Shown here: positions 3 to 24,748 of the stretch, one piece after another | Position numbering within the stretch: the stretch's first letter is position 1 | Layout of the letters: every line of letters begins with the position of its first letter | Program-made: the position numbers and the translations under genes | The notes under the pieces: generated by a model | The model's input: only the letters and a program-made list of their open reading frames with translations | Databases searched by the model: none | Told to the model about the DNA's origin: nothing | IMG/VR virus record: IMGVR_UViG_3300036846_000593 | Span: 1-26,845 of that record | DNA length: 26,845 nt | Strand: one strand, 5' to 3' | Origin: a virus

Positions 3-125
3 CCCCGATGGGTCGCCGTACTGCTCGTGACGAAGATGGCGCTTGATGAGGCCGAGGGGCGCGAAAAGATGGCGCTTGACCTCCTACGCAAACATCTGCC
101 CGCGGCGAAGGATTCAATTCAATGA
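3..125 (+). CDS. 3' end of an unidentified gene, truncated by the window edge
   Basis: The frame is open from the window edge to a TGA at 123-125, giving about 40 C-terminal residues (ending LRKHLPAAKDSIQ). The piece is charged and helical, with a short internal repeat (KMALDE, KMALDL). I do not recognise a family. The stop overlaps the integrase start in an ATGA arrangement, which suggests the two genes are co-transcribed and translationally coupled. The start lies outside the window, so total length and function cannot be judged. Confidence 0.5.
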   Translation, partial: PRWVAVLLVTKMALDEAEGREKMALDLLRKHLPAAKDSIQ

Positions 126-1285
126 AGGTCAGAATGCTGGACGGCAGCGGCTCGCGTGATTACCGCTACGTCTTCGTCCAGAACCCCGGCAACCGGGTTT
201 TCTTTCAGCGCGAGTCGCGCGCCCCGATCCGCACGCCGCGCATCCGGTTGCGCGAGCTCCCCGGCACGGACGCTTTCGATCTGGAATACCGCCGCGCCTT
301 CAAGGGCGAGGACATCGAGCCGCCGAAGATGGGGCGCCCGAAGATCGTCATCGAGCGCGCCGTGTCGAACACGCTGCGGTGGCTGGTCGAGCAATATTTC
401 GGCTCGCGGGCCTGGAAAGAGCTCGACGCCGATAAGACCCAGCCGAAGCGGCGGCACGCCCTCGAATCGATCTGCCGCGAGATACACGTTTCGACCGGCG
501 AGCCCTACGGCAACTTGCCCCTGGCGAAGCTCAACAGCGGTCACGTCGCCGCGCTGCGCGACAGCCCGGACGCCTTCAGCACCGGCAACGAGCGGGTCAA
601 AGCCTGCAAAACGATGTTCAAGTGGGCGGCCGCGGAAAAGCCGGACGCGTTGACGCCGGCACTGGTCGCGCAGAACCCGGCGGCGGTCACGCTCCGCAAG
701 CCGGCGCGCCCTGGCGGGCATCAGGCATGGAAAGAGCACAACGCGCAGGCATACGAGCGGACGCACGTGCTCGGGACCAAGGCGCGGCTAACCTCCGACC
801 TGTTGTTTTTCACGGGCGCCCGGATTTCGGACATCGTGCGGATGGGTCCGCTCAACATCGTCGGCGGCAAGCTTTGCTGGACCGAGTGGAAGGGGCGCAA
901 TCGCCACGAACCCAAGGAACACAAGCTGCCGATCCTCGCGCCGCTGCAATCCTCGCTCGACGCCTTCAACGCGGCCCGCGGCAACGTCACGTCGAAAACC
1001 TTCCTGACGACGCGCACCGGCGCCGCCTATAGCGAACACTCGCTCGGCGAGGCGTTGCGGGCGTGGTGCAAGGAAGCGGGCGTCCCGGCGGGACTATCGG
1101 CGCACGGTTGCCGCAAGCTCGCGGCGATCCGCTCCGCGCACAACGGCGCCTCGATTAAGGCCATGATGTCGGTCTTCGGCTGGCGGACCGAAAAGCAGGC
1201 GCTCTACTACATCGAGCAGGCCGAAAAAGAACTGTTCGAGGAAGCCGGCGCGCCCGCGCTGATGCCGTTCCGGGCAATAGGATAG
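122..1285 (+). CDS. int: Tyrosine recombinase / phage integrase
   Basis: 387 residues. This would be the site-specific recombinase that integrates and excises the phage genome in the host chromosome. The C-terminal catalytic domain shows the family signature: R234 in the FTGARISDI motif, K257 in EWKGRN, H328 and R331 in AHGCRK, and a double tyrosine Y362/Y363 as nucleophile. W354 (FGW) stands where most phage integrases have the second histidine, and Y363 is nine residues after it, the same spacing as Trp315/Tyr324 in Cre. The N-terminal 80 residues, with an RIRLRELPGT segment, resemble integrases common in Rhizobiales. The start is supported by AAGGA at 108-112, nine bases before the ATG, and by the ATGA overlap with the preceding gene. 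Target site and att sequences are not visible. Confidence 0.93.
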   Translation: MKVRMLDGSGSRDYRYVFVQNPGNRVFFQRESRAPIRTPRIRLRELPGTDAFDLEYRRAFKGEDIEPPKMGRPKIVIERAVSNTLRWLVEQYFGSRAWKELDADKTQPKRRHALESICREIHVSTGEPYGNLPLAKLNSGHVAALRDSPDAFSTGNERVKACKTMFKWAAAEKPDALTPALVAQNPAAVTLRKPARPGGHQAWKEHNAQAYERTHVLGTKARLTSDLLFFTGARISDIVRMGPLNIVGGKLCWTEWKGRNRHEPKEHKLPILAPLQSSLDAFNAARGNVTSKTFLTTRTGAAYSEHSLGEALRAWCKEAGVPAGLSAHGCRKLAAIRSAHNGASIKAMMSVFGWRTEKQALYYIEQAEKELFEEAGAPALMPFRAIG

Positions 1286-6441: not shown

Positions 6442-7986
6442 TCAGCCCCAAATCGCCAGCGTGAGTATCGATCGAACGGTGTTGTATTCCATCCCGGTTA
6501 TCAGCAACGGCCGCCCCGAATCGTACCCGAAACGGGGGATTGCAACGGCGACGGTCATCCCGAGGTCGAGCGCCTGGATTGCGTCGATGGTCAGCGGCGT
6601 GTCGACCTCGCCAAAATCGCGGTGGGTTTTGTAAAGGGCGAGGATGCGGTTTGCTTCCGCCTGGGCGTCCGCCTGAAGCGCCATCAGCGTCGTAAGCGTT
6701 TTTACTGCCGCGGCCGGGTCGGGAACCTTCACCGTGTCGTCCGAGGCGATGACGGTGCGTTCCTCTTTCGAGAGATAGGACCGCCGGTCGTCGGTAACGT
6801 CGCCGGCGATCCCGTTGCCGGTTTGCACCGTCCAATTGCGGGCGTAGTCGAGCGAGACTTTCCACGTCGGGATTCCGCGGTCGGGGTCGTTTGTCGGCAG
6901 AAACCGGAGGTCGGTCATATCGAGGTCGCCGGTCGCGGCGTCCGTCCCGATCCCGAACCGGCGCAGCGTCAGGATGGGGCTACCGGGAAGCTCTAGGCGT
7001 TGCATCCGCATGATGCTAAGGCGATCGGCGCCGTACCACGCGCCGACGCTCCCCAGGATTTGATCGAGCACCGCGGCGACCGTGGACGCGTTGTCGAGCC
7101 AAATCCCGACCGGCGCGGAGTTGTCCGCGTCGAGCGCGTCGACGTCATCTTCGTTTACCTCGGCGGGCGGGATCGCCCCCGGCCCGATCAAGACAGCCTT
7201 CGCGATCTGCGCGGCGGTCGCGCTGGCCGATTGCGTGACGTCAGCGGTCACAGTGCCAACCGGCGAGGTGCCGAGCCGAAAATATCCACCGGCGGGCCAG
7301 ACGCGGAAGTAACCCGCAGCCGGCGCCGTTGCCATCATGTCGGCTTGCGACGTGTAGTTTGTTTGCTTCGGTAGCGCCGCGCCGGAATCGTATACCGCCG
7401 GCACGTCATACACGGCGCCGTCATTGACCTGATAGATGAGCAGCGCGGTATTGCAGGATGGCGGCGAGACGTTAAGAACCTGTCCGAAGACGAGCGGCTT
7501 GGGCTTGTCCTTCAAATCGTCGACGCCTTCGAGCCCGTCGGGCAGGACGTTGTTCCCGAGGTAGTTATGCGGCTGCATCGGGCCTTGAAGGTCTTGCAGC
7601 CGGTCTTTCAGCCGAACTCGCGTCTCTGCGAGGTCGAACAACACCTGATCGACCCGGCCTTTGATAAGCGTCACGAACGCCGAGTAAGCGGTGTCGCTGT
7701 CGCCGATCAGCACGGTGCATTGCTGGCCGGCGAAGCCCCAAGGGCGCAGATAGTCGAGCGCGCCATCGGGGTTGCTTAGGATCAAATCCCCCTGTGACAC
7801 CGCGCCCTCGCCGCCGGTGGTGTTCTTCGAGAAGATGTCCCGCCGAAAGGTCGGCGGCTCGGTCATCCGGGCCGCGTAGGGTCCGGGCGCGGTCGGGTCC
7901 AAATAGGGCTGCGAACTAAAGCGGATGACCGTCAGTCCGGGCCCGCTGGTGTCGTAGCCTTCGAGCTCGATCAGATAGGTAAGCAT
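6442..7986 (-). CDS. Hub-like tail tip protein
   Basis: 514 residues. The N-terminal section (GDLILSNPDGALDYLRPWGFAG is a typical pattern) and the later beta-rich domains resemble large tail-tip or hub proteins found immediately after tape measure genes in rhizobial siphophages. No lysozyme or peptidase signature is visible. The ATG at 7984-7986 touches the last base of the upstream gene's stop codon, so the two are likely coupled. A hub or distal tail role is inferred mainly from position, size and low-level resemblance. Confidence 0.65.
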   Translation of the reverse strand: MLTYLIELEGYDTSGPGLTVIRFSSQPYLDPTAPGPYAARMTEPPTFRRDIFSKNTTGGEGAVSQGDLILSNPDGALDYLRPWGFAGQQCTVLIGDSDTAYSAFVTLIKGRVDQVLFDLAETRVRLKDRLQDLQGPMQPHNYLGNNVLPDGLEGVDDLKDKPKPLVFGQVLNVSPPSCNTALLIYQVNDGAVYDVPAVYDSGAALPKQTNYTSQADMMATAPAAGYFRVWPAGGYFRLGTSPVGTVTADVTQSASATAAQIAKAVLIGPGAIPPAEVNEDDVDALDADNSAPVGIWLDNASTVAAVLDQILGSVGAWYGADRLSIMRMQRLELPGSPILTLRRFGIGTDAATGDLDMTDLRFLPTNDPDRGIPTWKVSLDYARNWTVQTGNGIAGDVTDDRRSYLSKEERTVIASDDTVKVPDPAAAVKTLTTLMALQADAQAEANRILALYKTHRDFGEVDTPLTIDAIQALDLGMTVAVAIPRFGYDSGRPLLITGMEYNTVRSILTLAIWG

Positions 7987-10199
7987 CAGCCGAACGCTTG
8001 CCGGCGCAACGTGTTTTGAATGTCGTTCATGGCGTCAAGCTGGGCGCCGTTAACGCCGGCCATCCATTCGTCAAACTGCACCGTGACTTCGGCCAGGAAC
8101 TGAAGGTATCGGCGGATTTGGTCGAGTTGGTTGACTTGAGCCGCGCCCCACCCGGCGATGCGATTGCTCATATCGGCGATGACGTTATAGATATTTTGCG
8201 ACCAAGCGACGGTGTTCGCGTTGATGCCGCCGAGCGTCGAGTTGATGGCGTTCCCCCAACCGACAACGCTCCCGTTGACATTCCAGACCGCCTCGGCAAT
8301 GCCGCCGGTTTGCCCCTGCCAGCCGATCGCGCCGACGATCGAGTTGGCGGCGGAATAGATCGCGGCGATGGTGGTCGCGCTGATCGAGTAGAGCGAACCG
8401 ACAACTGCGTTGGAGCTATCGAAGGTCGCGCCGATTTGGTTACTCGATGACCCGTAGATCGCGCCGACCTCGGCGCCGGCGGCGGCAAATATCGAATTCG
8501 TAATGGCCGCGGTGGTCGCGTCGGTTTTGGCGGCGACGGCCTGCGCGTCGGCGGCGATCTGCGCCGTGAGCGTCGAGCTTTGCGCCTGATTGGCGGCGAG
8601 CAGGGCGCCCGAATTCGCTTCCTGCTGCTGCATCATGCTCGCGGCGTCTTCCTTGCTGCCGGCGAGCAGGGTTTGCGCGTTGGCTTGGTTGCTCGCGAGG
8701 AGCGACACGGTTCCTTGCGCCGCGGAGACGGTGCTTGCCGCTACCGCGTCGGACGTACCAACGGCAGCGGCAACGACCGCGGAGTTATCGGATTTCTTTG
8801 TCAGCAGATCGAGGCCGACCGTCACCGCGCCGACGATCGAGGCCGACCCGGCGCTGGCGTTGGTAATGATCGCGTTGCTTGTGTCAATCGTGGTGCCGGT
8901 GATCGCGTCGCTGCTGTCGCCGGTGGCGGCGATGATATCGCGCGACGTGTCACGGCCAGCCTGGACGATCTGCGCGTTTGTCGAGATGGTCGTGGCGACG
9001 ATCGTCGCGGCGCTGGCGTTGGTGGCGGTCCCTACGGCGTCGACGGTCTTTTGGCCGGTGTTGGTGATCGCGTCGACGATGGCGTTCGTGGAGGTCTGAT
9101 CTGCGCTCGGCACGCCGGGGAGCGCCGCAAGCTGTCGCTTGATTTCCTCAAACTCAGCACTGCCGGCCGGACCGCTCGCGAAGTAGCCGAGTAGCGCTTG
9201 CTTGAGACTATCGGCAACCCCGGTGATCCCCTGCAACGCGGTGAGGTCGCCGCCTTGAGCAAGGCCGAGTTGCGTCCCGAATTGCGACCGCGCGGCGGTC
9301 AGCCGCGACAGCGGCGACGTGTAGTCCGGCCCGGTTTCGAGGCTGTTCAGATATTGCCGGATTTGCAGGCCGGCTTGGAGGATCGCATTGTGCCGCGCCT
9401 CGGCGTCGGCGGCGGCTTGTGTCGCCGTCGCGGCATCATTGGACGCCTGTATCAGCCCCTTGGCTTCGTCGACCCACGACGCGAACGCCGGGTTGAGGTC
9501 GGCCAGGACTTTGCGCGACTCTTCAAGCTGATCGTTGTTTAGCTGGCGCAGGACGTTCAGCGCGGCTTGATGCTCCGTCTCTTGCGCCATGTTGACGGAA
9601 GCGTCATCGAGGCCGATCGCCCGCGCTTGCGCTTGTGTCGCTTGCCGGTTCTGGTCGAGCGTCCGAAGCTGCGAGAGATAGTCCGCGCCGCGCGCCGTAT
9701 CGTAAGCCTGCAATATCTGGAACTGCGCGGCTTGCCGATTGAGCGCCGCCGTCGCGGCTTCGGTCGCTGCCGCCGCATCCTTCGCGGCCTTCGCCATCGC
9801 GGGGAGGTCGGTATAGCCGAGTTCCGATACCGCGGCGATGACCTGATCGAGTTGCGTCGAGCTCAGCGGCGCGATGATCTGGGCAAAGCTGTTGTTGAGT
9901 ATTTGGCCGATCTGGTCGGTAACGCCCCTGTCGCCGCCGAGCCCGATCGCGGACGCTTCCTGATTGAGTGACTTGTAATTCGCGACTGTGGTCTGAATGT
10001 CGTTGAGGAAACCGGAACCCGTCGAGGTGTTAAACGCGGTGTTGAGCGCATCCTTGAAATCGCCCTGTAACCGCTTGGTCGCTTCCGCGAGGCCGGCATT
10101 GAGGGGATCGAGCGACAACCCGAACTTATTCGCCTGATCGGTCAGGGCGGCGAAGGTGGCATTGATCTGATCCATCGCCGTAGCGAATGGGCCCTTCAC
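7986..10199 (-). CDS. Second part of tape measure region, hendecad-repeat protein
   Basis: 737 residues from a GTG at 10199, but the frame is open for 35 more codons up to the TAA that ends the upstream tape measure, with which it is exactly in frame. There is no convincing ribosome site before the GTG (or the ATG eight codons later) and no start codon nearer the TAA. The N-terminal 300 residues are helical and Gln/Ala-rich. Residues around 395-630 show an imperfect 11-residue periodicity (for example NQIGATFDSSN, AVVGSLYSISA, TTIAAIYSAAN), as in tape measure coiled coils. Either it is a separate tail protein with poor initiation, or the C-terminal 40 percent of one tape measure cut by a nonsense codon or reached by readthrough. 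Confidence 0.7.
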   Translation of the reverse strand: MKGPFATAMDQINATFAALTDQANKFGLSLDPLNAGLAEATKRLQGDFKDALNTAFNTSTGSGFLNDIQTTVANYKSLNQEASAIGLGGDRGVTDQIGQILNNSFAQIIAPLSSTQLDQVIAAVSELGYTDLPAMAKAAKDAAAATEAATAALNRQAAQFQILQAYDTARGADYLSQLRTLDQNRQATQAQARAIGLDDASVNMAQETEHQAALNVLRQLNNDQLEESRKVLADLNPAFASWVDEAKGLIQASNDAATATQAAADAEARHNAILQAGLQIRQYLNSLETGPDYTSPLSRLTAARSQFGTQLGLAQGGDLTALQGITGVADSLKQALLGYFASGPAGSAEFEEIKRQLAALPGVPSADQTSTNAIVDAITNTGQKTVDAVGTATNASAATIVATTISTNAQIVQAGRDTSRDIIAATGDSSDAITGTTIDTSNAIITNASAGSASIVGAVTVGLDLLTKKSDNSAVVAAAVGTSDAVAASTVSAAQGTVSLLASNQANAQTLLAGSKEDAASMMQQQEANSGALLAANQAQSSTLTAQIAADAQAVAAKTDATTAAITNSIFAAAGAEVGAIYGSSSNQIGATFDSSNAVVGSLYSISATTIAAIYSAANSIVGAIGWQGQTGGIAEAVWNVNGSVVGWGNAINSTLGGINANTVAWSQNIYNVIADMSNRIAGWGAAQVNQLDQIRRYLQFLAEVTVQFDEWMAGVNGAQLDAMNDIQNTLRRQAFG

Positions 10200-10304
10200 C
10201 TGATCCGCGGCCTGCTCGACGGACTTAAAGGCATCGTCGGCCGCGGTCTTTACCGCGTCGTAGGCGTCGGCGAACTGCTTCGCCTGCGTTAGCTGATTCG
10301 GGTC

Positions 10305-13300
10305 TTAAAACTGGTCGTAGCTGAGCGAGCCCAGAACCTTTTGCGCCGTCTCGGAAAACTTAGACAGATCGATTTGTTTAAACAGAAACTCGCCGATCTG
10401 GTTCGAAAGCGAAGCTTGATCGGCGGCGCTGAAGGTCTGGGCGCCGAAGCCGCCGCGGAGTACCGCCTTTAGGCCGTCCCTGCTGCCGGCCTGCGCGATC
10501 AGCGTTTCCTCGGGGAGTATGGTTTGCCCGAGTATTTGATTGATGCTTTGGATTGTCTGCGCGATGGGCGCGACGATTGATTGGCTGGCCGCGTCATTGG
10601 CGGCGACGCCGCTGCTCGATGTGGCGCCGAGCGCACCGGAGGCAATCGATACGTTTGCCGTGCTGGCGAGGTTCGGCGGCTTGCTGTTGCCGAACAGCCC
10701 GCTAAGGAATTGTCCGGCCAGGCCGCCAACAATTGAGCCGAGCGGCCCCGCGAACGAGCCGAGCGCGCTACCGAGAAGCGCCCCGCCGGCGAGGCCGCCG
10801 AGCAAGCCGCCGGCACCGCTCGCGATCGTGCCGCCAATGCCCTGATTGCCGAACCCGAGCAATTGACCGGCGAGCGAACCGACCGTGCCGCCGAGGCCGG
10901 CGAACCCGAGCGCGCCGGTAAGCGTCGTCCCACCGAACAAGCCGGCGCTAACACCGCTCCCGGCGACGTCGGACGTGGCGCCGGTCGTCAGGTTCGTAAG
11001 GATGCCTTCGCCGGCCCCGCTGCCCGCCGCAATGTTCGAGCCGGACGAGGCAAAGCCGATGCTTGTCCCGATCTTGTTATTCAGGAAGTTCGTGATACCG
11101 CCAAAGATGCCGCCGCCGCTTCCGCTGCCGCTGCCGAGCGATACGACGTTCCCGGCGGATGAAATCGTGGCGACTGTGTTGCCGCTGCTATCCTTGATCG
11201 TGGCGCCGCCGCCGGAAGCGGCTTGGCTGCTATTGCCGGCGCTGAACAAGCCGCCGAGCAAGCCGGCGCCGCCGCCGCCGAACGTCCCGAAGCTTTGCGC
11301 GGCATTGGGCGAGAATATCGAGAGCACCGAGCCGATCGCCGGCTTGATGATCGCCATATCGAGAAGCTGGGTCTGGATCGACGCCAGAACTTGCTTAAAG
11401 ATCGTCCCCCACGATTCGATCTTTTGCCCGCTGAATAGCTTTTCTAGCTGGCCGGTGATCGCGCTATCGATGGTCTGGCCGATCGACCGGAACGTGTCAT
11501 CGATCCGCTGCTGTTCGCGCTGCGCCTCTTGAAGCTTCACGACCAGATCGGCTGTCGCCTCAACACTTGCGAGTCGTGCGTCTTTTTCTTTCTGGCTCAG
11601 CAGCGGAAACTTTTCTTCGATGTCCTGCTTCGCTCGCAGGATCGTGATCTGTCGCTGGATTTCGTCCGACGTCTGGCCGACTAGGCCAAGTTGCGCCGTC
11701 AACAGTTGCTGGGTGTCGGTCTGCGCCCGGATGTCCTCGGCGTTTTGCACTTTTTCAGCGGAGGCCATTTTGCCGAGGATGATCGCGCGGCGTTCTTCGA
11801 TCTGTTGCGTCTTGTCGACCGCGTTCCCGTACATCTGGGTGACTTCGGCCAGCGCTTGCGTCGTCGCTTGTTGCTCGACAACCGCCTTGCCGCTTTTCGC
11901 GTATGCGGCGGCGAGGGCGTTTTCCCCAATGGTCGCGTTATCAACAGCCGTGTTTTGCTGGGTGAACGCAGCGGTGGTCTTCGCTACCGCCGCCGCAACA
12001 TAGATTTGCTCTAGCTGGGTCTTTTGATTGACGTCCAGCCCCAGCCGCTCCGCGTCGGTTGCGGCGCGTTGCTTCGCGGCGAGAACGTCCGCGCTCAACC
12101 CCATTTGCTGGGTGACGGCGATATTGTCCTGTTCGGACTTCGTGAGCCGGTCAGTCTCGACCTGCTGTTGTGCCGTAGCGCCGGGGGTGCCGGTGACCGT
12201 AGCGCCGGGGGTGCCGGCGGGTAGCTGGCCTTGCTTTGCCTGATTGCTGGCAACCTCGCGGTTGGCGCCGATACCGTAATGACCGGGATCGGGATTGCTA
12301 AAGAGCGAACCGATCGAGATTTGAAGGCCGCGCGTCTGCGCTGCCGTCAGTATTGCTCGATCCATTTCCGGCGTCGGAAGCCCGCCGCCCATGCTTGGCC
12401 GTCCGACGATGCCTGTATCGACCGGCCTGCCGCCAGCATCAACAACCCGAACATCGACCGCATCGCCGCCGGGGTGAAGGCTATCCCCCGAGCGACTGCC
12501 CACGCCCGAGAAAATCTGAAAGCTCTGCCCCGGCGGGAGCACACTTGATGCGTCGCCCAATATCTGCCGTAAAGTCTCGACGCCCGGTGCTGTTACAACC
12601 CCCGGAGCCATCGAGACGCGCCCCGCCGTCCCCGTCCCCGTCGCGGTCGGCGGCGCAATCGGGATAACCTGCCCTTGCTGCCCGCCGCTGAAGTATCCCG
12701 GCCCCGATGGCGTGCCGCCGAATAGCTTCGTCACGTCATTGGCGAGGCCCGCCATGTCAGAAAAGAATTTCTGAAGGTTCGGCGCGATCTGTTTGCCAAG
12801 GGTATCAAGTAGATTGTCCCACGCCTTCGCCAGTTCGTTTGTCGCCGTTTGGAACGGCGTTAGGCTGTCTTTGTAGAAATGCGTTACCTTGGTATCGAGC
12901 AGCGCGAGGATTTGCGTCAGGGCTTGGGCGCTTTGGCCGTTCCGCGCCATTTCCTCGAAGTTCTTCGCCTGGGCTGCGGTCAGCGCGCCATAGTGCGTCG
13001 CCAGATCAATCGTCGCCTGGACCCCGCCGGTGAGCGCCTTTGTCACGTCATTGATGCCGGCAGCGGTGCCGCTGCCGGTAATCGCGCCGATACCGGCGCC
13101 GGCCCCTGCGATCTGTCGCGAGAAGGCCGGGTTCAGCCCCGAGGTCGATATACTGGTGATCGCCTTGCGCGCCTCGTCCGCACTGAGGCCGAGGTCGCGC
13201 ATATCCTTCGCGGCCTTTTCCAACCCGGCGCCGGTCGCGAGGCCCGCGTCACCGATGCCGGCCAGAGTGATGTTGAATTGCTTAATGTGCTGCTCTTCGC

Positions 13301-13994
13301 TGATGGCGTGCGCGCCCAACGCGACAAGCGCGACGGTCACGGCGCCGAGCGCGACACCGGCGGCGCCAGCGGCTATGCCCATCCCGCCGAGGCTTCGCAC
13401 CAGCCCCGGTATCGCCGGCCCGATCTGGAATAGCTGGGTCTGGAACGTCCGCGCCGCGCTCTCGCCGGCGGCCAAGCTTTGCACGACGTTGACGACGCCG
13501 GATCGCAAAATCTCGGTGTCGGTAAAGGTCAGCTTTGCCGCATTGCCGAGATTGCCGAGAGCCTTCGCGTTGTCGTTGGCGCCCTTCGTGCCGGCATCAT
13601 TCGCCGCGTTGCTTTTGGTGAGGTTCGCGAGCGCTTCTTCACGGCGCCGGGTGACGAGCTCGGTCGCTCTGGCGAGGTCCGCGGCGCTGTCGACGCCCGA
13701 CGCCTGCGCCTTGGCGATCTGGTTGAGGCCGCGTTGATAATCGAGCTCGGCCTTTGTCGCCCTGTCGAGCGTGCCGATAAAGCGGGTTAGCTGGGTGACG
13801 GTCCCGCCGGTCGCGGTATTGATAACCTGAAAGCTGGCGCCGGTGTTTGTGTTCGCCGCGGCGAGGCTGGTCGCGGATGCAGTGGCTTGGTTCTGGCTGA
13901 CGCTAAGCGCTTTGATGAGGTCATCGGCCGTTTTGACCTGATCTAGCCCGGTGACTCGAAGCTGATAGGTAGCGGTCGTTACCGTGTCAGCCAA
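10305..13994 (-). CDS. Tail tape measure protein with embedded M15-type peptidase motif
   Basis: 1229 residues. It would set tail length and be ejected with the DNA. The N-terminus is helical, with a hydrophobic Gly/Ala span near residues 203-231. Residues 240-425 resemble the prophage tail-length tape measure family (ITSISTSGLNPAF, then ATNELAKAWDNLLDTLG). Residues about 465-580 carry the zinc-peptidase pattern SLHPGGDAVD (H507, D514) and PGHYG (H572), matching HxxGxAxD...H of M15 carboxypeptidases. A helical region follows, then Gly-rich hydrophobic segments (about 930-1120). The start is a TTG overlapping the chaperone frame by eight bases, preceded by a G-rich stretch. A single TAA separates it from a 772-codon continuation in the same frame. 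Confidence 0.88.
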   Translation of the reverse strand: MADTVTTATYQLRVTGLDQVKTADDLIKALSVSQNQATASATSLAAANTNTGASFQVINTATGGTVTQLTRFIGTLDRATKAELDYQRGLNQIAKAQASGVDSAADLARATELVTRRREEALANLTKSNAANDAGTKGANDNAKALGNLGNAAKLTFTDTEILRSGVVNVVQSLAAGESAARTFQTQLFQIGPAIPGLVRSLGGMGIAAGAAGVALGAVTVALVALGAHAISEEQHIKQFNITLAGIGDAGLATGAGLEKAAKDMRDLGLSADEARKAITSISTSGLNPAFSRQIAGAGAGIGAITGSGTAAGINDVTKALTGGVQATIDLATHYGALTAAQAKNFEEMARNGQSAQALTQILALLDTKVTHFYKDSLTPFQTATNELAKAWDNLLDTLGKQIAPNLQKFFSDMAGLANDVTKLFGGTPSGPGYFSGGQQGQVIPIAPPTATGTGTAGRVSMAPGVVTAPGVETLRQILGDASSVLPPGQSFQIFSGVGSRSGDSLHPGGDAVDVRVVDAGGRPVDTGIVGRPSMGGGLPTPEMDRAILTAAQTRGLQISIGSLFSNPDPGHYGIGANREVASNQAKQGQLPAGTPGATVTGTPGATAQQQVETDRLTKSEQDNIAVTQQMGLSADVLAAKQRAATDAERLGLDVNQKTQLEQIYVAAAVAKTTAAFTQQNTAVDNATIGENALAAAYAKSGKAVVEQQATTQALAEVTQMYGNAVDKTQQIEERRAIILGKMASAEKVQNAEDIRAQTDTQQLLTAQLGLVGQTSDEIQRQITILRAKQDIEEKFPLLSQKEKDARLASVEATADLVVKLQEAQREQQRIDDTFRSIGQTIDSAITGQLEKLFSGQKIESWGTIFKQVLASIQTQLLDMAIIKPAIGSVLSIFSPNAAQSFGTFGGGGAGLLGGLFSAGNSSQAASGGGATIKDSSGNTVATISSAGNVVSLGSGSGSGGGIFGGITNFLNNKIGTSIGFASSGSNIAAGSGAGEGILTNLTTGATSDVAGSGVSAGLFGGTTLTGALGFAGLGGTVGSLAGQLLGFGNQGIGGTIASGAGGLLGGLAGGALLGSALGSFAGPLGSIVGGLAGQFLSGLFGNSKPPNLASTANVSIASGALGATSSSGVAANDAASQSIVAPIAQTIQSINQILGQTILPEETLIAQAGSRDGLKAVLRGGFGAQTFSAADQASLSNQIGEFLFKQIDLSKFSETAQKVLGSLSYDQF
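12173..12220. repeat. 24-bp tandem duplication inside the tape measure gene
   Basis: Two adjacent copies of a 24-base unit (12173-12196 and 12197-12220) differ at two positions. They encode the tandem octapeptides TGTPGATV and TGTPGATA in the linker after the M15-like domain, so the duplication keeps the frame and lengthens a flexible Gly/Thr/Pro linker. Confidence 0.8.
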
Positions 13995-14460
13995 CCGCGC
14001 CCCCCAGGTCGAACCGGCGCCCGCCGATCCCCGCCGGCCGAGGCCGCGGGGGCGGCGGTTTGTCGGTCGTCTTCGAGCTTTCCGCGGCTATCGACGCCCG
14101 GAGCATCCCGAGGAAGACCAGGGCGCGCGCTTCCCAGGCTTCGAGGTCAATCCCCATGACCTCGCGCCAGGACCGCAGCGCTTCCCAGGTAATGACCGCG
14201 GGCCCGAAGCCGGTCGGGGCGATGCCGAGCGTCAGTTCTTGGAACCACTGCCAGAGATAGGTCAGCAGTTCGGGGAACGCGGGCGGCGCGTCCGCGGGCT
14301 TCGGGGCGGTGATCGGCGACTCGGCGCGGCGATCGGGACGGCGCAACGCGGCGGGTATCTTCGCCCATTGCGCCTTGCCCGACTCGACGTGCTGGCGTTC
14401 GGTCGACCCGTCAGCAGCGGGGCGGTTGCCGCGGAACTCGAACTCGGCCCAAGCAATCAA
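13987..14460 (-). CDS. Tail assembly chaperone, GT-type extension reached by -1 frameshift
   Basis: This frame gives 157 residues from a TTG at 14460, but it is most likely read as the C-terminal part of a fusion. The upstream chaperone carries the slippery heptamer A AAT TTT at 14487-14481; a -1 slip leads through YAREVQA into this frame with no stop, giving about 299 residues. The segment LLTYLWQWFQELTLGIAPTG and the helix after it resemble the T domain of lambda-like GT chaperones. In lambda, G and GT bind the tape measure and recruit tube protein. The gene lies between chaperone G and the tape measure, the standard position. Independent initiation at the TTG (TTGA overlap with the upstream TGA) cannot be excluded. 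The last 40 residues are Pro/Arg-rich. Confidence 0.78.
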   Translation of the reverse strand: MIAWAEFEFRGNRPAADGSTERQHVESGKAQWAKIPAALRRPDRRAESPITAPKPADAPPAFPELLTYLWQWFQELTLGIAPTGFGPAVITWEALRSWREVMGIDLEAWEARALVFLGMLRASIAAESSKTTDKPPPPRPRPAGIGGRRFDLGGAVG

Positions 14461-14487
14461 TGCTTGAACCTCGCGGGCATAAAATTT
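14446..14487 (-). promoter_or_regulatory. Programmed -1 ribosomal frameshift site with stimulatory stem-loop
   Basis: On the minus strand the codons GCA AAT TTT near the end of the G-type gene contain A AAT TTT (14487 to 14481), an X XXY YYZ heptamer in the right phase. Ten bases later comes a stem of ten pairs (GGTTCAAGCA, 14470-14461, with TGCTTGGGCC, 14455-14446; two are G-U) and a five-base loop that contains the zero-frame TGA. The -1 frame continues straight into the downstream open frame. Confidence 0.82.
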
Positions 14488-14885
14488 GCGCGGTCAGCCG
14501 ACCACGCGTCGACCTGCTGCCGCAGCCAGAAAGCGCCCGGGTCTTCGTAAAGCTCGCGCGCCGCCTCGGCACTAAACGGCTTGTCGATCGGCTGGCCGTC
14601 AAAGTCGACGAGCGACCATCCAGCGGTGAGCGTCACCAGCAGGTCGGTCGCTGCGGCGTCCTGTTCCTCCGGGGTCATCTGCGTGCGGCCGCCGCGTTGT
14701 GCGATAGCCTGCCGCATCCGGATCAAGTCGCGCTGATGCGCCTTCGAGCGCGCGGAGTCGTTCGAATAGACGTCGACCCATCCGCCTTTTAACGCCTCGT
14801 TGGTCCGGGGATGCAGGATCGGCATCCGGCTTGCGGTCCCGACGTCGAGGTGAAGCCCCTCGAAGGGCGAATTGTTGCTTTTCAT
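14457..14885 (-). CDS. Tail assembly chaperone, lambda gpG-like
   Basis: 142 residues. The first part (GWVDVYSNDSARSKAHQRD) is charged, followed by AATDLLVTLTAGWSLVDFDG, PFSAEAARELYED and WLRQQVDAWSADRANF; this pattern of a helical body ending in a W-Q-V...RANF helix is typical of phage tail assembly chaperones. It would bind the tape measure during tail assembly in the cytoplasm. The ATG at 14885 is preferred over an upstream extension because AAGGGA lies nine bases before it and the extension contains the palindromes of the intergenic gap. The frameshift heptamer falls at residues 133-135; a normally terminated product ends seven residues later. Confidence 0.85.
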   Translation of the reverse strand: MKSNNSPFEGLHLDVGTASRMPILHPRTNEALKGGWVDVYSNDSARSKAHQRDLIRMRQAIAQRGGRTQMTPEEQDAAATDLLVTLTAGWSLVDFDGQPIDKPFSAEAARELYEDPGAFWLRQQVDAWSADRANFMPARFKH

Positions 14886-14948
14886 CGTGAGCGGTCCCTT
14901 ATGGCGGTAAGGAAAAGGGCGCGACGACCCGCCAGCCATCGCGCCCCC

Positions 14949-15007
14949 CGGTAGCACTACCGATCCGCCGGGTAGGACGGCGGACGGCGATCCCGTGGCA
15001 GCGGGAT
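14949..15007 (-). terminator. Three tandem stem-loops after the tail tube gene, attenuator candidates
   Basis: In the 123-base gap between tail tube and chaperone genes there are three perfect inverted repeats: ATCCCG/CGGGAT (14990-14995/15002-15007, loop 6), TCCGCCG/CGGCGGA (14964-14970/14978-14984, loop 7) and CGGTAG/CTACCG (14949-14954/14957-14962, loop 2). None is followed by a U-run, so a classic intrinsic terminator is not supported. They may stabilise the 3' end of the tube mRNA or lower downstream expression. Confidence 0.45.
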
Positions 15008-15008
15008 T

Positions 15009-16274
15009 TCACGCGGCACTGTCGAAGATTTGCATCGTGGTTTGCTCGACGCCGCTCGCGGTCCCGATGTACTTCAGTGCCGTGAACGGGATCGTCAGCG
15101 TCTGCGCGCCTAGCCCTTGAACCGCGACGTCGGCGTCAGAGAACTTGACCCGCGGTAGCAGCATCGTGACCGTGGGCGCATCCGGCGCGTTGGTCGTGGC
15201 GAGCGACACGAAAATCTCGATTTCGTCTTCGTTGAGAAAGTTTCGAATGAACGTGTTGTCTTCGAGCATGGCGGTCATCTGCCCGGTGATCGCGTTCGTC
15301 CCTTGAAAGACTTCAGGAACGAAGTTTTGCCCGACGACGGCATCCGAACTCGACTGCAAGTCCATCGCCAAGGTAAGGCCGGTCACGACGCCGACGACCG
15401 ACCCGCCGACCAGCAGCATTCCGTTGACCGCGGCGAAGATACCGGCGGTTGTTTCCGGTGCCGGCGCGGTGAAGAACGGCGCCACACCAAGCGGCGACAC
15501 GGCGTCGTAAAGCTCCATGTCGCGCCCGAAGAACGGAAACTCGATCGTCGACATGCCCGACGCCGGAAGCCCGAGGTTGAACCCGCCGACGCGGCATTCA
15601 GTGTATAAGCGCGCCGATGCGATATCTTCGTGGAAGACTTCCAGCCCGAACTTGCGGCGGGCGAACCCGGTCGACGGGATGAAAAGATGCTTACCCGGCG
15701 AGTTGACGGTAAAGGTCAATTCCGCGGCCATATCGGCCGGCGGCGCCGGGGCCACGGTGATGGTCGCGTTGGTGATCCCGCCGAACGCGACCGCGACAAA
15801 TTGCAACCCGTTAAACTCGGTCGCGCTGACCCCGGCGAGCGAAAAGATGCTGCCCTTGCGGAAACCGCTCGCCACCGGATCGCCCGACCCGAAGGTGATC
15901 GTCGAGGCGGTCTTGTTGGCGACCACGCTGGTAAAGGTCGACTGATCCAACGGGGTATCTTGCGCGTCGGTCGCGGTGCCGCGGAACCCGGCCTCGAACA
16001 GCGGGAAGTAGGTTCCCGGCGAAAACTCGCCGCTGACGTTGCCGGTAACGCGCCGGGTGCCGTGGCGCATATCGACGACCTGCCGATCAGAGCGGATTTC
16101 CGTCGCCTGATAGCTGTCCTTGGCGAGTTTGATGGTGGTGGCGACGCGGCGCAGGACTTGCCCGCCGGTCGGACCGGGATCGGTCGAGGATACCGCCTGC
16201 GTGTTGCTGTCGATAACGCCGGTGGTATAGGGCTTGTAAGCGACTCGGGCGCTTACGCCTTCCGCGAGGCTCAT
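15009..16274 (-). CDS. Major tail (tube) protein
   Basis: 421 residues. It would form the hexameric rings of the tail tube. The N-terminus (MSLAEGVSARVAYKPYTTG, then LRRVATTIKLAKDSYQATEI and a VTGNVSGEFSPGTY segment) is characteristic of the phage tail tube family of long-tailed phages; the rest is beta-rich with a likely inserted Ig-like or variable domain between residues 140 and 200 (ITFGSGDP to ATITVAPAPP). It sits between the tail terminator gene and the chaperones, as expected. The ATG at 16274 has GGAG nine bases upstream. Stem-loop-bearing gaps flank the gene on both sides, consistent with separate tuning of a highly expressed protein. Confidence 0.87.
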   Translation of the reverse strand: MSLAEGVSARVAYKPYTTGVIDSNTQAVSSTDPGPTGGQVLRRVATTIKLAKDSYQATEIRSDRQVVDMRHGTRRVTGNVSGEFSPGTYFPLFEAGFRGTATDAQDTPLDQSTFTSVVANKTASTITFGSGDPVASGFRKGSIFSLAGVSATEFNGLQFVAVAFGGITNATITVAPAPPADMAAELTFTVNSPGKHLFIPSTGFARRKFGLEVFHEDIASARLYTECRVGGFNLGLPASGMSTIEFPFFGRDMELYDAVSPLGVAPFFTAPAPETTAGIFAAVNGMLLVGGSVVGVVTGLTLAMDLQSSSDAVVGQNFVPEVFQGTNAITGQMTAMLEDNTFIRNFLNEDEIEIFVSLATTNAPDAPTVTMLLPRVKFSDADVAVQGLGAQTLTIPFTALKYIGTASGVEQTTMQIFDSAA

Positions 16275-17831: not shown

Positions 17832-18472
17832 ACCGACCAATACCGATAGTAGATCAGCCCATCACAGACCCAGACCGGCGGAAGGGCGGCGTCGCCGGTC
17901 GTCGAGGCGGCCTGTGCGGCGTTGGCGTAAACCACCATCGATGCGTCAAAGACCGTTTCCGACTGAATCGACGGGTCGCGGTCCGCGGAGAAGTAGCGCG
18001 CCTGTACCCAATCGCCGGCGACCGATTGGAGGTCTGGCGGGATCGGCTCGTAACCGGCGGTATAGTCGAGGACGATCAGGCCGACCCACACGCCATCGAT
18101 CAGGTAGAGCGCGCCGGTGTCCGGGTTCACGTCATAGGTCGCCGGGTCAATCGCCGTGCCCTCGACGGTGATCGTCAGCAGCGGATTGCCGCTGGTGTCG
18201 AGCGCGATCGGATATTGCCGGCAGCGCAGCGGCTTCATGAGGTCGAGGCAGACCCCGCGGTATTGGTCGCGGTAGACCTGTTGCGGGAAGAGCCGGTCGC
18301 AGTAATTCGACATCCGGGCCGAGACGTTGGCGATCATGCCGGTGAGCTTGTCGTCCTGGCTCGTATCCGCGGGATCGATCCCGAGCCGAAGCTTTGCGTC
18401 GTCGAGCGTAATCAGCCCCTGGTCATCCGCCGGCGTGATCAGCCGCGGGATCAGCACGCCGGGGTTGCTCAT
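17828..18472 (-). CDS. Head-tail connector protein, gp6-like
   Basis: 214 residues. The N-terminal helix pattern LITLDDAKLRLGIDPADTSQDD with DKLTGMIANVSARMSNYCDR is the hallmark of phage head-tail connector proteins of the gp6/gp15 type, which form the ring below the portal. The C-terminal half has beta strands and a helix (PPDLQSVAGDWVQARYF) also typical of this family. The ATG overlaps the preceding stop (ATGA). This is one of the more certain neck assignments. Confidence 0.82.
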   Translation of the reverse strand: MSNPGVLIPRLITPADDQGLITLDDAKLRLGIDPADTSQDDKLTGMIANVSARMSNYCDRLFPQQVYRDQYRGVCLDLMKPLRCRQYPIALDTSGNPLLTITVEGTAIDPATYDVNPDTGALYLIDGVWVGLIVLDYTAGYEPIPPDLQSVAGDWVQARYFSADRDPSIQSETVFDASMVVYANAAQAASTTGDAALPPVWVCDGLIYYRYWSV

Positions 18473-19059
18473 GATTGCAGCCGTGCGAGCAGCGGGTAGA
18501 GGTCACAGGTGACGGTCGAGCCATCCGCGGCGGCGAGCGTCAAGAGTCCGTCATCGCTCACCGTCAGCGAGGCGAGCCGCAGGCCGGGACCGGGTGCGCC
18601 GCGCTCCCCAGGCTTCCCGCGGCTTCCCTGGGAAGCCATCATTTGCCACTCGGGGCCCGGACAGGCGCCGGGTTTGTCCGATCGGGCGACGAAGCTCGAT
18701 CCGTCCTTGGTGACGACATCGAGGACGGCATAGACCGCGGCCGCGTCATACGTACCGCGGGTCTGAAACGACCGGCCGTTCGTCCCGGCGAGCCCAGGAA
18801 CGGCGAGGCATTGCCAATCGTCACCGGGCGGCGGTTTGCCGGTATCGCGGACCGCCTGCCATGTCGCGCCGCCGTGCACCACGACGACGCCGGCATAATG
18901 CACCTCGTCGGCCCAACTACGGGCCTGCGGGAAGCGCGCGGCCGGCGCCGGGGCGGCCTTGAGCGCCCGGACTTCCTCAAGGGCGCGCGTGCCGAGTCCC
19001 ACGGCAACCGCGAGAGATTGCCAGATCGTGTATCGCGGAGTCGGAACACCGTCAGTCAT
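18469..19059 (-). CDS. Collagen-like protein with a carbohydrate-binding-like domain
   Basis: 196 residues. Residues 35-90 include YAGVVVVHGGATWQAVRDTG, and a second similar unit follows (GRSFQTRGTYDAAAVYAVLD, then GSSFVARSDKPGACPGPEW). Both resemble small aromatic-rich modules (chitin-binding or fibre type) with a DVV...G.SFVA core. Five Gly-X-Y triplets (GSRGKPGERGAPGPG, residues about 145-159) follow, then a short beta tail. Collagen-like triplets in phage proteins normally form trimeric rods. It is the last gene of a block lying between portal and connector, where surface fibres are not usually encoded. It could be a head or neck fibre; function is inferred. Confidence 0.65.
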   Translation of the reverse strand: MTDGVPTPRYTIWQSLAVAVGLGTRALEEVRALKAAPAPAARFPQARSWADEVHYAGVVVVHGGATWQAVRDTGKPPPGDDWQCLAVPGLAGTNGRSFQTRGTYDAAAVYAVLDVVTKDGSSFVARSDKPGACPGPEWQMMASQGSRGKPGERGAPGPGLRLASLTVSDDGLLTLAAADGSTVTCDLYPLLARLQS

Positions 19060-19481
19060 GCGGCGAGCAACAGCAGGAATTCATTGTCATAGCCGGTTGC
19101 CTCCCCCGTAGCCGCGCCGCCGGCGAGGCGAGCGACCGTCAGCGGCAGGACCGCACCGCGCGCCGCCGCATCGATACCCGGGCGGCCCGGTCGCAGGGAC
19201 ACGAACAGTTCGAGGTAAGCGCCGGGAGCGACCGCATCTTGCCGGCGCGGCGCCGCGCCGCCGATGACGACGGTAATCTGGCTCTCGCCGCTCGCCGCAC
19301 CCGGAACGAATGCCAGATCGAGCCCGAGGGCTGCGCCGGCCGCGACGGCGCCGGCGTCCGGCAATTGGCCGAGCGCCCATCGCCCGAGCGGCCCCGGACC
19401 GCTTGTAGCCGCCGCAGCCGGGGCAACGGTCGGCAGGGCGCCGCCGAGCGCCGAGGTGCCGAGCGGTCCGCCGCCGAGCAT
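19056..19481 (-). CDS. Gly/Ala-rich structural protein, unknown
   Basis: 141 residues. It opens with MLGGGPLGTSALGGALP, and a similar GPLGRWALGQLPDA follows at about residue 30; such G-PLG-ALG motifs occur in small structural proteins of rhizobial phages. The remaining sequence is beta-like (SQITVVIGG, YLELFVSLRPG). No known enzyme motif. The ATG at 19481 overlaps the upstream stop by one base (TGATG), and its own stop overlaps the collagen-like gene's start. Probably part of the same surface assembly as its neighbours; this is inference from the operon. Confidence 0.6.
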   Translation of the reverse strand: MLGGGPLGTSALGGALPTVAPAAAATSGPGPLGRWALGQLPDAGAVAAGAALGLDLAFVPGAASGESQITVVIGGAAPRRQDAVAPGAYLELFVSLRPGRPGIDAAARGAVLPLTVARLAGGAATGEATGYDNEFLLLLAA

Positions 19482-19945
19482 CAGGCGCGCGCCTCTAGCG
19501 CGGCAACCCGCGCTTCGAGCTCGTTGATGGCGTCGGCAACGGTCCGATCCGCCTCTTGCGGCATCAGCAGGGCGCCGCCGCCCACGTTGATGACCAACGG
19601 CCCGGTCATGGTATCGCCGCCGCGCTGGACCCACGGCGCGCCGGCGAGGTCCGCGGCCAGGACGGTGATAAAGACCTGTGCCGCGCCGCTTAGCGGGATC
19701 GGCGAGGTATTGCCGGCGCCGGTGCTGCGGTAGACCGAGCGCGTCAGCGTCAAGGCCGCCGCGTTGTACGTCCCGGCGCCGGTTTCGCTCTGACCCGCGT
19801 CGGCGATGCCGTAGGAGACAACCGCGCCATCGGGCACCCCGGCCGAAGCAAAATTGAGATAACCGCTAACCGGCGGGCCGAGCGTCAGCGTCCCGGTCCC
19901 GACCGTTGGCGTCGTGACGCGGCAGAGGTCGAAAAGCTGGTTCAC
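19481..19945 (-). CDS. Fibre-like protein with C-terminal coiled coil
   Basis: 154 residues from a GTG start. The body (VNQLFDLCRVTT, then TGTLTLGPPVSGYLNFASAG, GAVVSYGIADAG and LTLTRSVYRSTG) is a repeat pattern I know from tail-fibre or appendage proteins of rhizobial and other proteobacterial phages. The segment GGDTMTGPLVINVGGGALL matches the fibre shaft motif that often precedes phage fibre tips, and the end (ADAINELEARVAALEARA) is a good trimeric coiled coil. The GTG at 19945 overlaps the preceding TGA (GTGA). Unusually for such a protein, it is encoded in the head module. Confidence 0.68.
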   Translation of the reverse strand: MNQLFDLCRVTTPTVGTGTLTLGPPVSGYLNFASAGVPDGAVVSYGIADAGQSETGAGTYNAAALTLTRSVYRSTGAGNTSPIPLSGAAQVFITVLAADLAGAPWVQRGGDTMTGPLVINVGGGALLMPQEADRTVADAINELEARVAALEARA

Positions 19946-20343
19946 GTCGCGTTGTGGATCGTGACGGTTGAGGCTTGGAGGGTGAACGCGCCATTGAGCG
20001 ACGTCACCATCCCGCCAAAGTCGATATAGGCGACGAGTGCTTGGTTGCTGGCGCTGTAGTAGACGGCGCCCGTTGCGCTGATCGTTGAGGCGGGCCACGC
20101 CACCGAGCCCAGCACGATATCCGTCTGGGCTGCGCCGGCGTCGTTGACGGTGACCGGCGCGGCTAGCCCGCCGGCGGTATAGCCGGCCCCGGTGACTTCG
20201 CCGGTGACGTCGCTCACCGTATTGTGGAGCCCCTTGTTCGGGCTGTAACCGCTGACGAGCATCGCCTTGAAGCTACCGGACGCGAAAGGGATCGTGCCCG
20301 CGGCCATGCCGTCGACCATTGCGTCGTAGATGAGGCTAGGCAA
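19942..20343 (-). CDS. Conserved phage structural protein
   Basis: 133 residues. The sequence (SLIYDAMVDGMAAGTIPFAS, then FKAMLVSGYSPNKGLH, VTGEVTGAGYTAGG and STISATGAVYYSAS) belongs to a conserved phage protein family in which a short helix is followed by repeated beta strands; it is usually found near fibre or appendage genes. No enzyme function is known to me. A TTG at 20343 is taken as start because family members begin just before the SLIYD segment, and it overlaps the upstream gene by eight bases. An ATG eight codons later (MVDGMAAG) is the alternative. Confidence 0.7.
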   Translation of the reverse strand: MPSLIYDAMVDGMAAGTIPFASGSFKAMLVSGYSPNKGLHNTVSDVTGEVTGAGYTAGGLAAPVTVNDAGAAQTDIVLGSVAWPASTISATGAVYYSASNQALVAYIDFGGMVTSLNGAFTLQASTVTIHNAT

Positions 20344-20854
20344 CGTTCCGCTCGATTTCGAGGATGCGGCCCCGGTCGTCGTGTTTGGTGACGCGCGTCC
20401 GCTCGACGCTGCGGACCGGCGTCGGCACGGTGACGTTGATAACCGGCGCCGGCGGGGCGATCACCGGCGCCTCGGCGAGCATCGACGCGCCGCGGCTGAT
20501 GAGGTGCGCGAGGTCGTCCGGCGCATAGGGATCAACACCGGGCGGCCCTGACGGCCCCTGGATGCCCTCAACGCCGGCGGGGCCCTCTACACCCCGCTCG
20601 CCCGCTTCCCCCTGCTCGCCGCGCTCGCCCGCGGCCCCTGGCTGGCCTTGTTCGCCGGCCGGTCCGGGTTCGCCGTCCTTGAGTTCGGCAATCCGCGCCG
20701 TCACGGCCTCGTTTAGCGTTCCGACCTCGGCGACAAGCTCGCGGATCGTCCGATCGAGCATCGCCTTTGTGTCGTCCTCGATCTTTCGCGCGATGCCGCC
20801 GAGTTCGGCGGCCAGGACTTCAAGCGGCGAGGTCGTCATAAGCTGATGAGCCAT
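20336..20854 (-). CDS. Collagen-like phage protein
   Basis: About 172 residues if started at the ATG at 20854; ATGs at 20893 and 20839 are also possible and none has a clear ribosome site, since the start lies inside the portal gene. A helical N-terminal part (LEVLAAELGGIARKIEDD, then a heptad-like helix) precedes 16 uninterrupted Gly-X-Y triplets (20531-20674). A C-terminal domain follows, with APVIAPPAPVINVTVPTP and a basic end. A coiled coil followed by a collagen rod is the design of trimeric bacterial and phage collagen-like proteins. In the portal-connector region it could form a fibre on the head or neck; that role is inferred. Confidence 0.7.
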   Translation of the reverse strand: MAHQLMTTSPLEVLAAELGGIARKIEDDTKAMLDRTIRELVAEVGTLNEAVTARIAELKDGEPGPAGEQGQPGAAGERGEQGEAGERGVEGPAGVEGIQGPSGPPGVDPYAPDDLAHLISRGASMLAEAPVIAPPAPVINVTVPTPVRSVERTRVTKHDDRGRILEIERNVA

Positions 20855-22244
20855 AGGCGGCGCGGAAGGCGCGCAGGGCGTTTTGTCCGGCATTGGGTTC
20901 GTTCGGTTCGTTCGGCTCGTTCGGGTCGTTCGGGTCCGGCTCGGGCTCGTTCGGCGCCGGCGATGGTGGCGACCCCGCCGGCGCCGGTGGCGGCGGTTGC
21001 ATGTTGGCGCCGTAGCTCAGCGGAACGACCTGCTGCTGAACCCGCGGCATCGCGCCGTAGCCGTTGGCGACCGCGGACAGGTCTTCCTCGGCGCGCGCCT
21101 CGTCGGGCGCATAGATGCCGCTGATGACGGCTCGCGCCAGCCCCTCGATCCGATCCTTGAACGCGGACCGCAACAGCGCCCGCGTGTTGAATTCGAGATA
21201 TTCGGTCGGCTGGCCGGCGAGGTTGAACAATTGCCCGAACGCTTCCTCAAGATGGTTGAGCGTGAAGCCGAGGCCATTCGCGATCCACTGTTGCATCAGC
21301 AGTTCGGTCGAGGCGTAGGGCGTGCCGCCGATCCCGAGGATGGCGAGTGGAACCCGCAGCGCAACCGCAACCGCCTGATCGTTCATCTTGAGCAGGTCGG
21401 CCAGCAACCCGTCGTTCGCGGTCCCCGTTAGGGTATGGGCCTTGAGGCCGTGCGTCAGGATCGGCGTCTTCCCGGCGTTTTCCCCGGTCGTTCGTTGTTC
21501 CCACTTCTCGCGTAGCTGGTCGACCTCCGCTTCCTTGATCGGAAGGTCGGTTTCGAGAATGTAGGACGGGCGCGCTTGGTTCAGGTAATAGGCGATCTGC
21601 TGATTGAGCGCCGCCCCGGAGAGCGCGAGTTCGAGCGTCGCCGCGAGGATCGGTGACACGCCTTTGAGCGGATGCGTCGGGGTATTCAGCCGGACGTGCA
21701 GAACATCGCGGGCGGGTATCGGATCGGTGAAGTCGATTCGCTGTTGGAGCACCTGATTTCCGTACACGCTGTAGAAAACCGAGCCATCTTCGCCGAGCAT
21801 GGCGAGGCCCCGGCGCATCAGGTGAAGCTCGATGATTTCGGCGCGGTTGTTGCGGATCGCGACGGCGAACGCCTCGCCGTTTTCGTAAAGGCGGCGGACG
21901 AGGTTTAAGAGGAAATCCGAAATGCTCTGGTAGTCGTTCGGCGCTTGCAGAATCCGGCACAAGGCCGAATTCGTGACCCGATCCCGCCCGCCATCACCGC
22001 GCGCCCGCCAATGGTCGCCCGGGCACATTGCGACGGTTTGGGCATAGGCGGACACGCACGCCTCGACGATCGCCGAGCTTTGCCCGCCCGGGAGCGCGGT
22101 ATAGCCCGCCTGCCACCAATTCATCAGGCGGCCCGCCGAGGCCGGCAACCACGACCCGTCGGTGAAAAAGTAAGGCCCCGGACGATACTGGCCTTCCGGG
22201 GCCCTGGTCAGCCATCCCGCGACGCGGGTCAACCAATTCGCCAT
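20820..22244 (-). CDS. Portal protein, HK97 family
   Basis: 474 residues. The dodecameric portal is the DNA gate at one head vertex and the terminase docking site. The sequence follows the HK97-type portal family: TALPGGQSSAIVEACVSAYA near residue 50, DFLLNLVRRLYENGEAFA (about 108-125), HPLKGVSPILAATLELAL, and a long helix before VPLAILGI and STELLMQQWIANGLGFTLN. The C-terminus is low-complexity Pro/Asn/Glu (four PNE-type repeats near residues 441-455). The ATG at 22244 directly abuts the stop of the preceding 46-residue gene. Terminase-capsid-portal order is inverted relative to HK97 (terminase-portal-protease-capsid), which is worth noting. Confidence 0.92.
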   Translation of the reverse strand: MANWLTRVAGWLTRAPEGQYRPGPYFFTDGSWLPASAGRLMNWWQAGYTALPGGQSSAIVEACVSAYAQTVAMCPGDHWRARGDGGRDRVTNSALCRILQAPNDYQSISDFLLNLVRRLYENGEAFAVAIRNNRAEIIELHLMRRGLAMLGEDGSVFYSVYGNQVLQQRIDFTDPIPARDVLHVRLNTPTHPLKGVSPILAATLELALSGAALNQQIAYYLNQARPSYILETDLPIKEAEVDQLREKWEQRTTGENAGKTPILTHGLKAHTLTGTANDGLLADLLKMNDQAVAVALRVPLAILGIGGTPYASTELLMQQWIANGLGFTLNHLEEAFGQLFNLAGQPTEYLEFNTRALLRSAFKDRIEGLARAVISGIYAPDEARAEEDLSAVANGYGAMPRVQQQVVPLSYGANMQPPPPAPAGSPPSPAPNEPEPDPNDPNEPNEPNEPNAGQNALRAFRAAYGSSAYDDLAA

Positions 22245-24747: not shown

Positions 24748-24748
24748 G

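Follow-up and report, generated by a model that had tools for sequence, protein, structure and literature searches.

A private in-frame stop codon probably breaks a single tape measure gene, about 2,000 codons long, in an uncultured temperate siphovirus

Does a single in-frame TAA divide a phage tape measure into two working proteins, does it allow a short and a long form, or does it break what is one gene in related phages? This question is raised by a stretch of 26,845 bases (the window), which is a whole IMG/VR virus record and a single contig without a second. The window is a fragment of an uncultured temperate siphovirus; the phage bears an integrase and is perhaps a prophage. Viewed alone, the window could be taken to encode two proteins or to specify two lengths of tail. 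We show here that relatives instead carry one ordinary gene across this position and that the stop is private to the window. The genes that surround the tape measure, with further distal tail genes after it on the minus strand, are the following:

122-1285, plus strand: integrase
6442-7986, minus strand: protein of 514 residues directly after the tape measure (phrog_8917, E 2.7e-106)
13987-14957, minus strand: tail assembly chaperone pair, G and G/T type, directly before the tape measure (phrog_313 tail assembly chaperone, E 3e-12)
15009-16274, minus strand: tail tube protein
20820-22244, minus strand: portal protein
22825-24834, minus strand: protease-major head protein fusion in one frame of 669 residues (phrog_617, Peptidase_S78 and a weak Phage_capsid match)
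24749-26266, minus strand: terminase large subunit

From 13994 to 7986 the minus strand holds one frame of 2,002 sense codons that is interrupted once, by a TAA at 10305-10307. The first-pass annotation had described such a frame of about 2,000 codons, and its coordinates and counts are correct. The parts of the frame are:

10308-13994, minus strand: N part of the tape measure, 1,229 codons with a TTG start that overlaps the end of the preceding gene
10305-10307, minus strand: in-frame TAA, codon 1230, private to this contig (a sense codon or a gap in all aligned relatives)
10197-10199, minus strand: GTG, nearest candidate start downstream of the TAA, not conserved
7986-10304, minus strand: C part of the tape measure, 772 codons and a TGA stop, in the same frame as the N part

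The open reading frame 7986-10199 on the minus strand has a GTG start and a TGA stop, encodes 737 amino acids and shares its frame with the one of 1,229 residues; this relation, and the 35 open codons from the TAA to the GTG, were part of the original description and are confirmed in the sequence. At the base composition of the window, a downstream open frame of 772 codons has a chance probability of about 7e-10, and third-position GC is high on the two sides of the TAA, 0.76 and 0.80 (0.80 in the C part), a level shared with the genuine genes of the window. Hence, what follows the TAA is genuine coding sequence, read in the tape measure frame.

The identity of the protein is given by its N part, which matches PF06791 (TMP_2) with 32.9 bits against a curated cut-off of 30.2 and phrog_24 (tail length tape measure protein) with E 3.9e-8, while the 772 codons of the C part gave no family match. 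The gene follows the tail assembly chaperone genes and precedes the distal tail genes, as expected for a siphovirus tape measure, and the same order of chaperone, tape measure and distal tail genes is found in Caulobacter phage Sansa. Family match and gene order are thus those of the PF06791/phrog_24 proteins, from which the window differs by its stop at codon 1230.

Relatives were reached first by the terminase, and then by alignment queries with the C part and by alignment of the neighbouring protein; exact peptide patterns taken from either part of the tape measure or from the protein after it returned nothing among viral contigs, the patterns being too strict. Among the longer terminase relatives, two of 19 (G002 and G005) carry a related tape measure, and in both the N-part match ends and the C-part match begins within a few bases, in one stop-free frame of 2,488 and 2,659 codons, respectively. 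The C-part query led to 10 loci, and in all of them the junction lies inside one frame of 2,389-2,659 codons. The 514-residue neighbour, used as an anchor, added the closest colinear relative, L071, in which an uninterrupted tape measure of 2,070 codons is 53% identical to the window in the N part (1,205 aligned residues) and 48% in the C part. Altogether, 11 of 11 contigs that align across the stop, some of them near-identical to each other, have one uninterrupted frame of 2,070-2,659 codons. The first-pass annotation had proposed a homologue search in which long fused frames would speak for a broken gene and two genes with a conserved TAA for a split; run here, the search returned fused frames throughout, and the recent nonsense mutation that was one of its three options gains support, since related tape measures are uninterrupted across the stop. 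Two separate genes with a conserved TAA were rejected as a description of the locus, because the relatives carry a single uninterrupted frame.

The alignment also resolves the site itself. In the TAA column of seven aligned relatives the same sense residue stands in five (L071, L073, L066, L067 and L068) and a gap in two (L074 and L084), and from the TAA to GTG 10199 the alignment with the relatives' proteins runs through all 35 codons without a break. At the place of GTG 10199, no relative's alignment has a start codon or a methionine-type residue. This unbroken alignment, together with the lack of conservation of the GTG, indicates that the ancestral state is one gene and that the stop is derived and private. 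The single-frame tape measures of L071, L074, L073, L084, L066 and L068 are colinear with the window, are 43-56% identical to it in the C part and end in the same C-terminus (LRRQAFG or LRRNAFG); they differ from it in being uninterrupted over 2,070-2,659 codons, and their N-terminal halves are mosaic, with 28-53% identity. C-part identity reaches 55% to G002 and 53-56% to L074, L073 and L084, which is about the similarity of the relatives among themselves, and at such distances a rate test on the branch of the window would not be meaningful. No relative with more than 70% tape measure identity was found, so that polymorphism at the site is not visible, and a query made of the bases on either side of the stop brought up no other copy of this phage. 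Scans of bacterial genomes and a plasmid search likewise found no relative of this phage. As a separate observation, the tape measure of L067 has an N part identical to that of L073 and a C part identical to that of L066; it is either a clean recombinant or an assembly chimera, and the changeover falls somewhere close to the alignment column that holds the TAA of the window.

How the TAA is read has to be considered for the phage as a whole and for this site. The TAA that terminates the major head protein gene lies exactly at the end of the homologue in L007; TAA is therefore not generally recoded in this phage, and genome-wide reading of TAA as sense was rejected. Programmed or suppressor-dependent readthrough at the tape measure TAA, yielding a short and a long protein, would agree with a downstream frame that is intact and undecayed in codon composition. 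Recoding in the adjoining tail assembly chaperone pair may also seem to favor it: the chaperone frames 14457-14957 and 13987-14460 (minus strand) overlap in two frames with a slippery AAATTTT at 14487-14481, and this A-AAT-TTT run fits the known programmed -1 frameshift of the G/G-T type. Yet that frameshift, although a recoding in tail genes just upstream, is a different and conserved device that acts between two genes and not on a stop in a tape measure, and it says nothing for readthrough there. A TAA followed by G, as here, is an efficient terminator, no tRNA gene was found in the window, and a stop at this position occurs in no aligned relative, which speaks against readthrough as a conserved mechanism; stop readthrough had been among the options of the first reading of the locus. 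We regard readthrough as most improbable. A two-part tape measure fares similarly. Here re-initiation or coupling would yield a separate C-part chain, begun at GTG 10199 or ATG 10175, that works together with the N part. The in-frame GTG lies 35 codons past the stop, and its ribosome site is poor: pairing with the anti-Shine-Dalgarno sequence amounts to -4.9 kcal/mol before GTG 10199 and to -9.3 kcal/mol at the tape measure start. The statement that there is no ribosome site before this GTG thus holds in so far as the site is weak, but several genes of this phage have sites as weak or weaker, and the score does not discriminate for or against the GTG as a start. What counts against two chains is that neither a conserved TAA nor a second start is present in the relatives, that none of them has two genes, and that the 35 codons aligned without a break in relatives would be missing from both products. 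A two-part tape measure is therefore very unlikely. With both the stop and the GTG start missing from every relative, neither conserved readthrough nor the two-part reading is supported, and it is hardly to be expected that regulated readthrough or re-initiation at a private TAA gives one phage two lengths of tape measure or a ruler made of two chains.

A further explanation places the TAA in the record and not in the phage, as a sequencing or assembly error of a metagenomic consensus, with an intact phage gene of 2,003 codons. The change is private and of a single base, the rest of the gene and the other structural genes are intact, and the window is a metagenome-type contig of IMG/VR, all of which an error would accommodate. 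Against this, the structural genes of the contig show no other stop or frameshift error, and of the substitutions that a random base error could cause in this gene, only about 2.5% would yield a stop. We consider a consensus error unlikely. As to the age of the stop, 446 single changes in the whole gene, and 182 in the C part, are able to make a stop, so that the lack of a second one limits neutral change since the loss to about 2% or less for the whole gene and about 5% or less for the C part (95% bound). Therefore, one of three things applies: the stop is recent, the phage does not have it because the consensus is wrong, or expression of the downstream part continues.

Taken together, it is likely that this is one tape measure gene of about 2,000 codons, recently broken by a private, derived TAA that leaves a truncated product. 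A single substitution is enough to account for the TAA, and an ancestral single gene would have acquired the in-frame stop at 10305-10307 by such a step; we infer that the mutation is real and recent. The chain would then stop at residue 1,229 and lack the conserved C-terminal part. What this would mean for the particle can be judged by analogy with gpH of phage lambda. That protein is matured by C-terminal proteolysis of the full-length chain, not by a stop codon. The protein of the window is likened to it by its presumed role, and not by sequence, as a helical ruler anchored by its C-terminus in the tail tip, where the C-terminus of gpH has been located (PMC10721106). By this analogy the lost part would be expected at the tail tip and the chain would probably fail to initiate a tail. 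Since this conserved C-terminal part is cut off, the copy is probably tail-defective. The tail lengths calculated in the first-pass annotation are arithmetically right (about 184 versus 300 nm at 0.15 nm per residue), and they presume that each form builds a tail; the phenotype, as judged from gpH, is probably not a 185-nm tail but the absence of a functional one, barring suppression of the stop. Particles could be rescued if the host suppresses the stop leakily or if the population is polymorphic. Annotation pipelines would list a tape measure of 1,229 residues and a 737-residue protein of unknown function, and a tail length of 185 nm predicted from such an annotation would be wrong. If the mutation is true, this copy is probably a defective temperate phage. 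No clear lesion was seen in the other structural genes of the window, and thus nothing besides the tape measure stop marks the phage as decayed.

The frequency of such breaks was estimated with the 514-residue neighbour (phrog_8917) as a neutral anchor, which makes sampling independent of the intactness of the tape measure. Viral contigs contained 65 anchored loci; six were left out because the contig end cuts the tape measure, and the remaining 59 contigs, with a complete tape measure, are counted as records, without merging those of one phage, and not as independent events. In none of the 59 does an in-frame stop divide the tape measure, and two are split by a frameshift (L134 near 9081 and L135 near 7308-7353), L135 being 96% identical to the intact L124. 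Like the window, both have a recognisable tape measure with one lesion, which in them is a frameshift and not an in-frame stop. The short tape measures of L085, L090 and L100 begin at the N-terminal homology and are complete. Broken tape measures thus occur in the neighbour-anchored sample but are rare, and two frameshifts in 59 contigs give a rough break rate for this phage group. A literature search, made largely without subscription journals, found no report of a natural in-frame stop that splits a tape measure.

Two further features of the window were observed. Within the tape measure, the segment 12222-12614 (minus strand) shows by eye a motif like that of M15 peptidases, SxHPGGDAxD ... 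HYG, and the block of residues 470-551 is 78% identical to L071. A Pfam test of the segment gave no match; judged by its motif, it is possibly a wall hydrolase. At 18469-20893 on the minus strand lies a gene that is one frame of 362-586 codons in L007, L009, L011 and L013. The window matches it in two blocks, 20899-20537 and 18921-18475, which are in different frames and are separated by about 1.6 kb of other open reading frames, apparently an inserted module.
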